From Chloroflexi bacterium 44-23 (GTDB lineage: Bacteria > Chloroflexota > Anaerolineae > Anaerolineales > Anaerolineaceae), in the NCBI GenBank assembly GCA_001899005.1, contig MKUW01000015.1:186001-250000 (forward strand): a DNA stretch of 64,000 bases, given 5' to 3'. The notes beneath the pieces were generated by a model. It ran no database searches and had not been told where the DNA came from. It saw nothing but the letters and a program-made list of their open reading frames with translations. Below, piece after piece: positions 2,671-11,810 of the stretch; within the stretch, counting starts at the first letter, position 1, and each line of letters begins with the position of its first letter. The translations under genes were made by a program, and so were the position numbers.

Positions 2671-3471
2671 TCAGCCAGATTTCTGCGCATAGGCAAAGAA
2701 TGTCGGAATGAATTGGATATGGGATTCAAGATTATCATCGGCCAGGTTTTCAAAGGGTCTGAAAGGGTTGGATTTCTCTTCTGCCAGGAGGTTCAGATCA
2801 TTCTCCAGCACTTTTTGTTCGAGTTCCGCTTCCTGGAGGTTTGAAACCAAGGGGCGATTTGCACCGATGATTCCCCATGTAATATTTGAAAATCCTGCAT
2901 CCTGTAATTGGTGAGCAATTTGGCGCCCACCATCGATTCTGGCCCCTTGAATTTTCATTGATTGGTTCTGCAATAGACCCAGTTTTGAATAATTCTCAGG
3001 ATAATCAATGCGCCCTTGATAATCCGGCTCAGCAAAACAAGCCACCCAGCTTTCTTTTCGAACAACCCGTTTCATTTCTTGCAGCATTTTCACCGGCTCT
3101 TGAATCCAAAGCAAAAGGTAATGGCAGTAAACAAAATCGAAGTAATTTTCGAGAAAAGGTATGCAATAGCCATCAGCGTTGATCAATTCGATTGTGGGCT
3201 TCCCAATTTTATTAAATCGTAGAAATTGAAAATGAAGATCCAATCCAAATAATTGGCCTGATCTGGGTTCAGGATAAGAATCCAGGATGGCACCGGTGCC
3301 GCTGCCAATTTCCAGAATTCTAGCTTGTTGTGGTAATCTGATTCTGTTAAGGATAAAAGAACGCGCTTCGGTTGTCCAACTCGATTGTTGAACAAAACGA
3401 TTGTGCCATTCCTGCGTTTTCAAACTTTTTCTTTGACGTACTGTTTGGCATTTGTCCAGATTGACTCCCAA
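2671..3471 (-). CDS. Class I SAM-dependent methyltransferase
   Basis: ILEIGSGTGAIL (motif I), FVYCHYLLLWI, MLQEMKRVVRKESWVACFAEPD. Overlaps the 3' end of the upstream pseudo-rSAM gene by 52 nt. Confidence 0.85.
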   Translation of the reverse strand: MGVNLDKCQTVRQRKSLKTQEWHNRFVQQSSWTTEARSFILNRIRLPQQARILEIGSGTGAILDSYPEPRSGQLFGLDLHFQFLRFNKIGKPTIELINADGYCIPFLENYFDFVYCHYLLLWIQEPVKMLQEMKRVVRKESWVACFAEPDYQGRIDYPENYSKLGLLQNQSMKIQGARIDGGRQIAHQLQDAGFSNITWGIIGANRPLVSNLQEAELEQKVLENDLNLLAEEKSNPFRPFENLADDNLESHIQFIPTFFAYAQKSG

Positions 3472-4601
3472 CTTTCGGAGAGGATGTTTCCTAAAACCTG
3501 GTTAATTCCCTGGGATGGCAGCACATCGCCATCGGGCTCAACATACAACCAACCGATGCCGGCGCCTTCCGGAATCTCGTTAATTGCTTGCGTTTCAAGG
3601 GTCACCGGGTTGTATTGTGAATAGGGAACAGGAAGATTCCATATGAAATTCAGGCCTAACTCAGCGCAGCGATCACGCAGGGAACTGGTTTTTTCGAGTA
3701 GATGAATTGAGTTACTGGATAAAGAGATATTTTCCAGGCCGGATTCCCTTAATTCGACTAAAACGCTCTCGATTTTATCAGCATTTTCCTCATTAACCGT
3801 CAAGTGCACGGTAACATGAATATCTTCATCTAAAGCATTTTTAAGCGCAACCCATGCCGATTTCAAATTGGGATCCATGGTGATGAGAAGGTGGTCAAGA
3901 CCGGCATCTAATAATTGATCCAGGTAATGAGGATCGACGAATTTCAAGCCATCTGTAATCAATCCAGTCACTTGTCCAAGATCTTGTGAATATTGCAAAA
4001 TTTCGGCCAGATCCGATCTGGTGGTTGCTTCTCCTCCGGTAAATACCAGATGGGGGATACCAGCATTCCAGGCTTTGAGAGCAATTGCCTTCCATTCCTC
4101 GGTTGTTAAGTCGCGATCAACCCTATCATGTGGGGAAAGGTTATCTTCACTGGCATTCGCGAGCGAATATGTCAGAGCACAATCGAGGCGATATGGCGCA
4201 CTCAGTTCGCTGTTAAAAGGCTTTTCACGGTCAAAATCAAGATAAGTTACCGGATCGAGATCGGGAACATTGATTATTGTCTCAATTTTCTCAAGAAACG
4301 AATCATAATCTTGCTGTGCTTCACTGTAAGAAGTCTGATAGCGATCAATGATCGATTGTAGCACTTGCGGGCGAGGTGTTTGCTTTATGAAATGAAAAGC
4401 AAATTCTGTCGCTATTTGATTTAAATGCAAGATCGTGGCAGCGTTGATAATCAAAATTCCCTCGGCATTCGAATCAATACGCAAATATAAGCGAAGGGGA
4501 AGATCACTATCAGGAGGGGCTGTAAATCTATAAAAACCTGGAGATAAGGGCTTAGCTTTGTCGAAGAAAACTGCTTTTATTTTATCTAAAATGGCAGACA
4601 T
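3420..4601 (-). CDS. Pseudo-radical-SAM/SPASM paralogue lacking the CxxxCxxC motif and the SPASM cysteines
   Basis: Aligns along its length with the 4625-5962 protein (SAPYRLDCALTY..., GIPHLVFTGGEATTRSDL, LVEPDGDVLPSQ) but CNNDCTHCY is replaced by LANASEDNL. Confidence 0.85.
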   Translation of the reverse strand: MSAILDKIKAVFFDKAKPLSPGFYRFTAPPDSDLPLRLYLRIDSNAEGILIINAATILHLNQIATEFAFHFIKQTPRPQVLQSIIDRYQTSYSEAQQDYDSFLEKIETIINVPDLDPVTYLDFDREKPFNSELSAPYRLDCALTYSLANASEDNLSPHDRVDRDLTTEEWKAIALKAWNAGIPHLVFTGGEATTRSDLAEILQYSQDLGQVTGLITDGLKFVDPHYLDQLLDAGLDHLLITMDPNLKSAWVALKNALDEDIHVTVHLTVNEENADKIESVLVELRESGLENISLSSNSIHLLEKTSSLRDRCAELGLNFIWNLPVPYSQYNPVTLETQAINEIPEGAGIGWLYVEPDGDVLPSQGINQVLGNILSESWESIWTNAKQYVKEKV

Positions 4602-4624
4602 CCGTTCCTCCTCAAATAAATTGG

Positions 4625-5962
4625 CTAATCAGTATCAATGAAAATCAAAGGACACCCACCCCCGCATTCGCGTGCTAATTCGCAATCCTGGCATTTTCCT
4701 GGCAAGTATTGTCTGTTCCGCAATTGCAAGGAGAGGTCATGATTCCAGATGGTTTCCCATGAATTCTGAAGAATATTACCTAATGGTTGATAGTAAGATT
4801 GACAAGGTAGTACGGCGCCATCCGGTTCTATACACATGTTATATAACGCAGCTGTACAACCCTTAACGCCCAGTTCGTTCGTTATTGGGTTGAATTTGCA
4901 ATATTCTGTGGGGGTATACCAAATTAATTTTTGATTGTTTCGAGTGGTTTTTTCGCGAGCCATATCCAAAATACTTTCCAATGCTTCTTCACGTAACCCG
5001 GTACCGACCTCGCGGCCTTTACCTGAGTGAATTAACGCGTTTAAACCGACCGTTGGCACGTTTAATTCAGCCAAAAAATCCAATGTGGCAGGGATCGTGT
5101 CAACATTAGTTGTCAGCATGGTGGTGTTGGTCATCATATACAATTCTTCAGCAACCGTGTTTTTAATCCCTTCGACCGTCTTCACCCAGGCACCGCGCCG
5201 GTTGACCATAGCATCATGGATGCCGGCATCCACCGATTCGAGTGTAATCTGAATGTGATCCAATCCAGCATCTACCAATTTGCGCAGGTAGTCGCGGTTT
5301 GCCAACTTTCGGCCGTTGGTATTTATACCCGCGATTTGGCCTTTGTTTTGCGCATAGGCGATTAGATCGGGAAGGTCATTTCGCAAAGTAGGTTCGCCAC
5401 CTGTAAAAACAATGTGTGGAATGCCAATGTCCCAGAGCATATCGATGATTCTGAACCAATCCTTGGTTTGCAATTCAGGGTAACTTCGGATGCGGGCGTT
5501 ATAACAATGCGTACAGTCATTGTTACAGCGGTAGGTGAGAGCCAGATCCATACGATAAGGTGCGCTGGGAGTGTGGCTGAAAGGCAGATCCATATCAAGG
5601 TCCAAATCACAGACAACGCACGCTTCTTGCGGATCAGCTATTACAGATATTTGGTTAATGAATTCAGAAATATCTGAGGATGCCTGGCTGCTTGATACTT
5701 GGAAATTCCTTTTAAGAGCATGTGTCATTTGTGGTTCGGTTTGCCCGTTGAGGTACCAAAAGGCCATTGCGCTGGCGCTGGGGTTTAAATGATAAGCGCG
5801 AGCTGCATTGACCATTAACAGCCCATTTCCATCGCTTTCGACTCGCAGATGAATTCGGTTCTTGCTATCTTCCTGTTGGTTTGCGAAATGATAGATTCCT
5901 GAAGCAGGAATTTTCTGAAAGGTTAGATCAGTAAGTTTTTCCAGCCATGTTGGAAGATTCAT
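4625..5962 (-). CDS. PqqD-like N-terminal domain plus radical SAM/SPASM peptide-modifying protein
   Basis: LALTYRCNNDCTHCYNARI, FTGGEPTLRNDL, and SPASM cysteines CIEPDGAVLPC...CQDCELARECGGGC. Start set at MNLPTWLEK (5962); the ORF extension to 6022 reads through the CA-tail DNA. Confidence 0.92.
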   Translation of the reverse strand: MNLPTWLEKLTDLTFQKIPASGIYHFANQQEDSKNRIHLRVESDGNGLLMVNAARAYHLNPSASAMAFWYLNGQTEPQMTHALKRNFQVSSSQASSDISEFINQISVIADPQEACVVCDLDLDMDLPFSHTPSAPYRMDLALTYRCNNDCTHCYNARIRSYPELQTKDWFRIIDMLWDIGIPHIVFTGGEPTLRNDLPDLIAYAQNKGQIAGINTNGRKLANRDYLRKLVDAGLDHIQITLESVDAGIHDAMVNRRGAWVKTVEGIKNTVAEELYMMTNTTMLTTNVDTIPATLDFLAELNVPTVGLNALIHSGKGREVGTGLREEALESILDMAREKTTRNNQKLIWYTPTEYCKFNPITNELGVKGCTAALYNMCIEPDGAVLPCQSYYQPLGNILQNSWETIWNHDLSLQLRNRQYLPGKCQDCELARECGGGCPLIFIDTD

Positions 5963-7668
5963 TAACGACCTCCACCGGCACAAGCACAGGCACAGCCTGC
6001 GCAAGCACAGGCACAGGCACACGAACTGCCACCACCTCCACTGCGCCCGCCGGTAGAACGCCCGGACGTGGTTTGAGGAATGGGATTGGTTTTATTGGTA
6101 ATGGCTCCGGTAAATTTTGAAATGTCACCAACCACCCCGGCCGAGAAAGACTGAACACCATTGGTGATTGAAGCCGCAAAATCAGAACCTGGCAGGTTGG
6201 GTAAATTAATAGTGGTCTTTCCTGAACCGGTCATCGGTGTTACCGAAGGGCGAACTCCGCCAATGGCACCACCACCACTGCTGACCGGCCTTATGGTGGG
6301 ATCATAACGCCACCACCACATCGGCAAAATTACAGGCATGTTTCCAAAAGTGGTACGAGTACGGTCATCATACTTGCGGTCAAGCATGGTCCAATCCATA
6401 TTCTCTTCGTATTTCTCAGATTTCACCTCAGGTGTTTGAGCGGTTTCAACCTGGTTCCAGGCGCGTTCCATTATGTCCTTGTAATATTCGATTGATTCCT
6501 TGCGGCTGAATCCTTTCATTTTCTTTGATACTTCATTCACCAAATCGGTCATCATGGTTTGTAAAGCCGCCGTTTTTGCTTTTGAATCCAGCAGCATCGC
6601 ATCCAGGAATTGTTTTTCATAAAGTTGCAAACCGGCAGGGGCCGGTGATACTGCCTTGATTTCTAAGGGATCCCTGGTGACAACTTCGGCTGCTTCTTTC
6701 TTAAGAGTAGAGAAAAGTATCATGGTCATGACTTTGTCCATCGGCTGCTCCATTAATATGGCTGCTTCTACTGCGGTCAGACCACGCTTGATTCCCTGTC
6801 CCTCAAGTGCAATTTTTGGTGGCAGATATTTTAATTTACGCTTTTTAGCCCCTACCGTTGCCGAATAAATGGTCAGGATAAAGAAACCCAGGAAACCCAG
6901 ACAGATCAATGCTGGACAGATGGCATCCGAGTCAATTTTGATTGCAGGAGCAGTTACAATTTGTGATTCTGGCAAATTACGCGCAGGGAAACTGGCCCCA
7001 AATGTATATTTGCTGTGGACATCTGCATTGGCAGCATGCCAGCGATAATAAACACCGCCAACATTATCATAACCACTATCCGGTTGATCCTGTCCCGGCC
7101 AATTCTTGGGAGTATTATAGCGCGGCTCATCAGAACTCAATCCGGTTGGCAGATAAAGTGTCACCGTCATATCGGTGCTTCCGGTTACATATTGGCTGCC
7201 AAAATAACTTGGGGAGAACTCAAAACTGGCATAGGGCTCGTCCGCTTTCACGTCGGAGGGATACAAGGATTTATTAATAGTGCCAACGTAAACGTGCAAT
7301 TGACCGCGTTTTCCAGGTTGTATGGCGTTAGCTCCCAAGCCGATTGCAACACCGATATCCACATAATCAGAGCGGCTGATGTCTGTGAGCGGTTTTCCGT
7401 CAATTTCAGCACTGATGCTATTCATCACATAATTGTTATTTGGCAAACCAATATCGACATAATCGATTGGTGCACCGTTGGGCTGATTAACGAAATCAAT
7501 CGTATACTCGACGGAGAGTGACCCGTCCTCGTTAACGATTACATCCACCAGTTGTCGCTCAACAGAAAAATAGTAATCTTGGGCAGAAACCGGTGCAGGG
7601 TTTCCCGCAAGCAGCGCCAAAATTAAAAGAACTGAAAGGAATCTTAATTTGTTAATCATCGTATTCAT
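5962..7668 (-). CDS. DUF2207-like membrane protein with C-terminal Cys-Ala repeat tail
   Basis: Signal peptide, extracellular domain, one TM (CPALICLGFLGFFILTIYSATVGA), linker and tail GGGGSSCACACACAGCACACAGGGR. Stop/start overlap TAATG with the rSAM gene. Confidence 0.85.
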   Translation of the reverse strand: MNTMINKLRFLSVLLILALLAGNPAPVSAQDYYFSVERQLVDVIVNEDGSLSVEYTIDFVNQPNGAPIDYVDIGLPNNNYVMNSISAEIDGKPLTDISRSDYVDIGVAIGLGANAIQPGKRGQLHVYVGTINKSLYPSDVKADEPYASFEFSPSYFGSQYVTGSTDMTVTLYLPTGLSSDEPRYNTPKNWPGQDQPDSGYDNVGGVYYRWHAANADVHSKYTFGASFPARNLPESQIVTAPAIKIDSDAICPALICLGFLGFFILTIYSATVGAKKRKLKYLPPKIALEGQGIKRGLTAVEAAILMEQPMDKVMTMILFSTLKKEAAEVVTRDPLEIKAVSPAPAGLQLYEKQFLDAMLLDSKAKTAALQTMMTDLVNEVSKKMKGFSRKESIEYYKDIMERAWNQVETAQTPEVKSEKYEENMDWTMLDRKYDDRTRTTFGNMPVILPMWWWRYDPTIRPVSSGGGAIGGVRPSVTPMTGSGKTTINLPNLPGSDFAASITNGVQSFSAGVVGDISKFTGAITNKTNPIPQTTSGRSTGGRSGGGGSSCACACACAGCACACAGGGR

Positions 7669-7682
7669 TTCCTTTTATGAAG

Positions 7683-8042
7683 TTACCATTTTGGTTCTTC
7701 AGTAATTTGGTAGGTTGTGTGACAGTAGGGACAGGTAACCATGGGAGCTCCGTTCACCATTGTAATGTCCTTTGAGGTGAGCACACCTCCACATGATTGA
7801 CATTTAAGTGCATCAAGCGCCACATTTCCCGGTAAATCGATGTTGAGGGTGACATTATTGGTTTGCTTTTGGGCTTCTTTCGCCTTCTTAGTCACAAAAT
7901 AAATAATGACAAAACCAATGGCAGCCAAAATTACTCCAACAATGATGCTACTGACCTGACCTTGAGGGCTGAATGCGCTTAAAATGAACAAAACGCCAAA
8001 CCCAATTAATATTGCTGCTGCAATGTAACTGATGGTTTTCAT
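7683..8042 (-). CDS. Small two-TM protein with C-terminal zinc ribbon (CQSCGG...CPYCHTTY)
   Basis: Two N-terminal hydrophobic helices and CxxC...CxxC; 14-nt gap to the DUF2207-like gene. Confidence 0.8.
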   Translation of the reverse strand: MKTISYIAAAILIGFGVLFILSAFSPQGQVSSIIVGVILAAIGFVIIYFVTKKAKEAQKQTNNVTLNIDLPGNVALDALKCQSCGGVLTSKDITMVNGAPMVTCPYCHTTYQITEEPKW

Positions 8043-11383: not shown

Positions 11384-11413
11384 AAAAACGGTTGATTAAT
11401 CATCAACCGTTTT
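11384..11413. terminator. Bidirectional terminator between the RlmI-like gene and tmRNA
   Basis: AAAACGGTTGAT-TAATC-ATCAACCGTTTT. Confidence 0.85.
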
Positions 11414-11414
11414 G

Positions 11415-11810
11415 TGGAGATGGCGGGAATTGAACCCGCGTCCGAAAGATTAGATCATCGAACATCTACAAGTTTAGTTGGTTCATCGTTTCCTAACCAG
11501 ATCAGCGAACCGACAAAACTGAAAAGGCACTATCAGCTTGAGCCCGAGAGCTCTCTTTCGATCAGAACGCTGAATGCTGACCGGCACCCTAATCTTGTGA
11601 CGCCCACTTTACCACCGATTAGGGGACGGGGTAGGCGGACGTGGATCCCGTAAGATCCATTTAGCTACTACTTACTCACTAAGCAGCGAGGGGCATAGCA
11701 GCATATGTGTTTGTGCGATTGGCACTTGTTTTGTGTACTGAGTTTACGATGTCGGTACCTCTCGACTTGCAGTCCGGGATCAGCTTCCTCCGTCGAAGCC
11801 TGTCATCCCC
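11415..11810 (-). ncRNA. ssrA: Transfer-messenger RNA (tmRNA)
   Basis: Reverse complement 5' GGGGATGACAGGCTTCGACGGAGGAAGC... and 3' GGACGCGGGTTCAATTCCCGCCATCTCCA. Acceptor stem GGGGATG/CATCTCC pairs. Tag frame (11679-11723) GCC AAT CGC ACA AAC ACA TAT GCT GCT ATG CCC CTC GCT GCT TAG = ANRTNTYAAMPLAA. Confidence 0.95.

Follow-up and report, generated by a model that had tools for sequence, protein, structure and literature searches.

What does a radical S-adenosylmethionine (SAM) enzyme of the peptide-modifying kind act on when it is encoded directly behind a membrane protein that ends in alternating cysteine and alanine? The question is raised by positions 2671–8042 of a 64,000-nucleotide (nt) stretch of Chloroflexi bacterium 44-23, family Anaerolineaceae (contig MKUW01000015.1, positions 186,001–250,000; hereafter the window), where five open reading frames (ORFs) lie on the minus strand. 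Comparative genomics indicates that they probably form a protein-maturation cassette resembling those of ribosomally synthesized and post-translationally modified peptides (RiPPs), its substrate being the C-terminal tail of the membrane protein. The features are as follows.

7683–8042, minus strand: ZnR, small membrane protein of 119 residues and first gene of the cassette, with two hydrophobic segments and a C-terminal zinc ribbon (CxxC...CxxC)
5962–7668, minus strand: tail protein, 568 residues, remotely DUF2207-like
5965–6021, minus strand: C-terminal tail CACACACAGCACACAGGGR, 19 residues with 7 Cys, the proposed substrate
6076–6114, minus strand: semi-conserved segment FTGAITNKTNPIP, residues 519–531, 5' of a variable Gly/Ser linker
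4625–5962, minus strand: radical SAM enzyme, 445 residues, with a RiPP recognition element (RRE)/PqqD-like domain (about residues 20–105), a radical SAM core and a C-terminal SPASM domain
5504–5527, minus strand: CX3CX2C motif (C146, C150, C153) of the SAM-binding [4Fe-4S] cluster
3420–4601, minus strand: radical SAM paralogue (pseudo-rSAM), 393 residues, lacking CX3CX2C, its SPASM region truncated
2671–3423 (or to 3471), minus strand: class I SAM-dependent methyltransferase (PF08241, 56 bits, cut-off 21.2)

The tail and its membrane scaffold

An earlier note on this DNA had described a membrane protein with an alternating Cys-Ala tail, and CACACACAGCACACAGGGR is indeed its C-terminus. Sixty-two copies recovered by homology (those with the central Gly) agree in every one of the last 17 residues, although on average 60% of their codons differ synonymously and the terminal Arg is written in all six of its codons. 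Identity of the residues despite such change in the codons points to selection at the level of the protein rather than the DNA. The figure leaves out loci recovered with the tail pattern itself, which are biased towards identical tails. Exceptions among the homology-found relatives are confined to repeat number and a single Gly-to-Ser change, and the linker before the tail varies freely.

A search of 85,462 species genomes with an exact DNA pattern of the tail yielded at least 119 matches, of which 80 were readable. These are distributed over Chloroflexota, Asgard archaea, Fermentibacterota, Aminicenantes, Acidobacteriota, Zixibacteria, Coatesbacteria and Edwardsbacteria. In 79 of the 80 the pattern encodes the C-terminus of a homologous protein; the remaining locus, cut by the contig end, adjoins a pseudo-enzyme and an enzyme of the type B described below. 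Within the phylum the pattern was present in 28 of 400 genomes, against none for a reversed control pattern. An unbiased profile search of the Asgard phylum recovered a tail-protein homologue in 65 of 196 genomes. All 47 intact C-termini that were read there are Cys-repeat tails ending GG[GFY]R, 28 of the Cys-Ala (CA) type and 19 of a Cys/His (CHSA) type, and one further copy is frameshifted. Searches of the literature with the tail sequences as peptides, with DUF2207 or ACGX paired with radical SAM, and with the term pseudo-rSAM returned nothing; the cassette matches no NCBIfam equivalog and no paper in the literature searched.

The tail protein is predicted to comprise a signal peptide, a beta-sandwich ectodomain (residues 34–228), one transmembrane segment (250–280), a cytosolic helical domain (299–441) and a disordered C-terminus. 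Lys and Arg within 20 residues average 0.66 before the transmembrane segment and 6.21 after it, a charge distribution that places the C-terminus inside. The Cys tail is predicted to lie in the cytosol, on the same side of the membrane as the enzyme. F519, T520, T527, N528, P529 and P531 of the FTGAITNKTNPIP segment are invariant or nearly so in the order; its cross-phylum consensus is FxxxVTxxTNPxP, and the form FTxxVTxxTNPxP precedes the variable linker. This segment could be the sequence that the RRE domain recognizes.

The label 'DUF2207-like' given in the earlier note fits only remotely. DUF2207 profiles of Pfam (PF09972/PF20990) gave no match to the window protein at E ≤ 0.1, and matches in its relatives all fall below the gathering cut-off (E = 0.018 for DUF2207_C, 0.015–0.097 for the N-terminal domain). 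The two families share a signal peptide, ectodomain, transmembrane segment, cytosolic domain and low-complexity tail, but the Cys tail and the enzyme partner are particular to the present one. No solved structure with sequence kinship to the tail protein was found. Foldseek matches to N-domains of M1 aminopeptidases and to beta domains of oligosaccharyltransferases (query TM-scores about 0.25) were rejected as a guide to function, and nothing was concluded from them.

Two relatives end differently. An 878-residue ORF (L184:5442–8078) joins the ectodomain to an unrelated part without a Cys tail, which by eye resembles a formylglycine-generating-enzyme/sulfatase-type domain. A more distant homologue (L150:1447–3336) has a Cys-free tail rich in Gly, Ser and Phe, and its genome (G405), which has no enzyme match, serves as a natural negative control.

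The enzyme and its inheritance with the tail

The enzyme carries both the CX3CX2C motif and SPASM cysteines. CX3CX2C is invariant in 29 homologues and in all 22 members of a cross-phylum set, and the SPASM domain is well above its Pfam cut-off (39.2 bits against 21.5). The earlier note had also assigned a PqqD-like domain, for which the Pfam match is below threshold (PF05402, 21.1 bits against 23.4, E = 0.00039). The AlphaFold model (pTM 0.82) predicts strands followed by three helices at the N terminus, and it aligns over nearly its full length with its best structural matches, SkfB, SuiB and CteB, which supports an N-terminal RRE domain despite the sub-threshold match; the epimerase EpeE is also among the structural matches. 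PqqE and SkfB are among the best sequence matches. The profile search that had been proposed as a check reached no NCBIfam equivalog (best 148 bits, cut-off 500).

Enzyme and tail keep close company. Radical SAM homologues regularly lacking a Cys-tail neighbour, which the earlier note held to be fatal to its proposal, were not found: among 41 relatives, the tail protein accompanies a strong enzyme match in all 33 genomes that have one and is missing from the 8 that do not. Of the 400 phylum genomes, the same 28 match on all three counts (tail pattern, profile of the tail protein, profile of the enzyme); three other enzyme genes of this sample belong to a sister (CHSA) branch and adjoin a different Cys-tail protein. 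A genome-wide check of 15 CA-tail genomes, mostly chosen for having no enzyme visible beside the tail, found the enzyme encoded in 14; the fifteenth is fragmented, with the pseudo-enzyme alone visible.

Phylogenies built from the enzyme and, with its tail removed, from the tail protein each place the split between CA and CHSA at one branch with 100% support. The Asgard clades are the same in both trees, as are most of the bacterial ones. Pairwise distances in the two proteins correlate at 0.89, where the best of 1000 permutations gave 0.19; for the bacterial CA members alone the correlation is 0.68 (permutation maximum 0.34).

The sister branch pairs a homologous membrane protein, its tail of the ACHSACHSAC type with a dozen or so Cys, with a related RRE-bearing radical SAM enzyme. 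Asgard CHSA tails read CVSHDACHSAC...VSGG[FY]R, such that both tail types in these archaea end in Gly-Gly, one further residue and Arg; the Chloroflexota CHSA tails end differently. In the Chloroflexota loci a protein of ~400 residues and a membrane zinc-ribbon protein follow, and in most Asgard loci the enzyme gene is divergent. The loci of the sister branch, and those of the type-B enzymes, are these.

L181:4804–8117, L182:8666–11808 and L183:2646–5794: CHSA loci in Chloroflexota
L352–L369 and L371: CHSA loci in Asgard archaea
L067:5066–8195, L201, L208, L253, L283, L310 and L313: type-B loci

On comparative-genomic grounds, co-occurrence and a sister clade with another Cys tail strongly support the proposal that the tail is the substrate of the RRE-radical SAM-SPASM enzyme.

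The remaining genes of the cassette

Most genomes of the family and order preserve the arrangement zinc ribbon, tail protein, radical SAM enzyme, pseudo-rSAM, methyltransferase. The earlier note's five packed genes, their coordinates and their spacing were confirmed: 14 nt separate the zinc-ribbon and tail-protein genes, the start of the enzyme and the stop of the tail protein share TAATG and overlap by 1 nt, and the gap before the pseudo-rSAM is 23 nt. The exception is a 52-nt overlap, which arises because an upstream TTG was taken as the methyltransferase start. The start is probably the TTG at 3423, overlapping the pseudo-rSAM stop by 4 nt (TTGA), a choice that fits the N terminus of homologues. 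In most bacteria, as in Asgard archaea, the methyltransferase gene likewise lies 3' of the enzyme gene. Some relatives have additional genes inserted among the last three of the cassette (enzyme, pseudo-enzyme, methyltransferase); as read from their sequences, these insertions vary by locus and are not part of the core. The conserved core, judged by sequence comparison, is tail protein, enzyme and methyltransferase. The zinc-ribbon gene lies 5' of the tail-protein gene in most loci and the four ribbon Cys are invariant in 17 homologues; in profile searches every family match of this protein was below cut-off.

The pseudo-rSAM is about 37% identical to the enzyme. Earlier called cysteine-less, it has two Cys in the window and from 0 to 4 across relatives, none of which carries CX3CX2C, so the cluster motif is absent all the same. 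It scores far below the pseudo-rSAM family TIGR04347 (41.3 bits, cut-off 525). Nor do the data support treating enzyme and pseudo-enzyme as an essential pair: no pseudo-rSAM was seen outside Chloroflexota, and one genome rated 97% complete (G135) keeps it (L186:2598–3743) without tail protein or enzyme. In Chloroflexota this paralogue, catalytically dead, probably plays the part of an accessory subunit. In G135 it adjoins apparent leucine biosynthesis genes.

Minus-strand tRNA and tmRNA genes of ordinary kind flank the region (2490–2564 and 11412–11810), and no other RNA element was found near the cassette. A promoter and terminator scan of the cassette gave results at chance level. Assignment to a defence system was rejected, the PADLOC matches being weak and generic (viperin-like, methyltransferase-like).

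What the tail may become

It is quite likely, on the comparative-genomic evidence, that the enzyme modifies the tail. The RRE domain would bind the cytosolic C-terminal region, perhaps through the FTxxVTxxTNPxP segment, the GGGR end or both, and the radical SAM/SPASM enzyme would then modify the Cys-Ala repeat by means of a 5'-deoxyadenosyl radical. Thioether cross-links of the sactionine/ranthionine type are the most likely modification, although we put a thioether-linked product slightly short of an even chance. The methyltransferase may finish or cap the modified tail, and the product would remain held by the membrane as a rigid multi-cysteine site on its inner face. Tentatively, the matured tail may work as a metal or redox device; this is likelier than a diversifying antibiotic because the tail is invariant from bacteria to archaea.

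The nearest precedent, by analogy, is the proposal that tails of TIGR04222 membrane proteins are substrates of MNIO (DUF692) enzymes (PMC12452194). Both cases involve an integral membrane protein with a large extracytoplasmic domain, a low-complexity C-terminal tail containing Cys and an associated RiPP-type enzyme. They differ in enzyme class, tail type, predicted topology and degree of conservation: the TIGR04222 tail is Ser/Gly-rich with scattered Cys and predicted to be periplasmic, over a quarter of members have no tail Cys and about a third of the genomes bearing the protein have no enzyme (PMC12452194). TIGR04222 matched neither the window protein nor six divergent homologues, and a scan of the five cassette genes found no MNIO among them. 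A second likeness is to the ACGX-repeat system with its TIGR04340 enzyme. CHSA tails share the four-residue ACxx repeat that the ACGX name implies, whereas the repeat of the CA tail is two residues long; the CHSA-type enzyme scores 91.3 bits against a TIGR04340 cut-off of 400, a distant similarity.

Several observations weigh against the tail as substrate. That the two genes co-occur is no proof of the enzyme acting on the tail, and shared descent of linked neighbour genes also raises the congruence of trees. The two trees disagree on the position of one type-B locus (L072). Some type-B enzymes carry a Cys-rich C-terminal extension of their own (GGGCSGCSGSCGTG), and tail-protein paralogues that are cytosolic and have no Cys tail (about 280–335 residues) are encoded near type-B enzymes. 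The terminal SPASM Cys is absent from most Anaerolineales enzymes and present in other phyla. An additional CPxC pair stands in the linker from RRE to radical SAM core in many Anaerolineales enzymes, and other phyla show the opposite pattern; the two differences may reflect a rewired auxiliary cluster.

Even with the tail as substrate the reaction could be another. Epimerization, desaturation, C-methylation or a C-C cross-link, with a methyltransferase that S- or O-methylates (for example the C-terminal Arg carboxylate), would suit the GG[GFY]R end kept in both Asgard tail types, the conserved adjacent methyltransferase, and SuiB and EpeE among the structural matches. Sequences do not decide the reaction, but the abundance of Cys favours S-linked chemistry, and we regard these alternatives as rather unlikely.

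Less probable again is a tail that binds metal in a metallothionein-like manner, or nucleates Fe-S clusters, without being modified, the enzyme and methyltransferase acting on another molecule and the membrane protein serving as anchor, sensor or metal source. The CxC repeats of the CA tail and the Cys/His repeats of the CHSA tail suit metals, a zinc-ribbon membrane protein is encoded next door, and the enzyme's sequence neighbours PqqE, AhbD and NirJ include some that act on small molecules. The RRE-type domain and best fold matches to peptide maturases speak against it, as does the tracking of tail type with enzyme clade. Moreover, Ala is almost invariant, whereas a plain metal-binding tail would be expected to accept Ser, Gly or Lys between its Cys.

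The modified tail might instead be cut off and exported as a signal or bacteriocin. SkfB, AlbA, CteB and SuiB share the RRE-radical SAM-SPASM order, a layout characteristic of enzymes that mature sactipeptides and ranthipeptides. These four act on short peptides that are released and whose cores vary, whereas here the putative substrate is an invariant tail on a membrane protein of ~570 residues, and not a short precursor with a leader and a variable core. The conserved core of the loci compared has neither peptidase nor exporter, and the tail is predicted to be cytosolic and, unlike secreted RiPP cores, does not vary across domains of life. Release of a peptide is very improbable. Drift of a DUF2207-type Gly-rich tail to Cys-Ala by DNA slippage, for which the Cys-free tail of the distant homologue without an enzyme could be cited, has a negligible chance given the exact C-terminal position and the empty reversed control, and amino-acid invariance with extensive synonymous change refutes such a low-complexity artefact.

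With the tail as the enzyme's substrate, the matured Cys-Ala tail may, as a cautious suggestion, be an ancient protein-derived prosthetic group: a multi-cysteine structure built by radical SAM chemistry at the inner membrane face and binding a metal or redox centre in anaerobes, of which the CHSA tail would be a second edition made by the sister enzyme. The usual view of RiPP-type enzymes is that they decorate secreted peptides that are short and evolve fast; the presumed substrate here is the tail of a resident membrane protein. Since its sequence is the same in two domains of life, it looks cofactor-like and not antibiotic-like, and its identity in distant bacteria and Asgard archaea points to an unrecognized and very ancient protein modification. 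The chemistry is directly testable by mass spectrometry, because the tail is fixed, the operon is small and the system is present in cultured Anaerolineaceae. If true, the finding would bring a modification of a membrane protein into the cell biology of the Asgard archaea, of which little is known.

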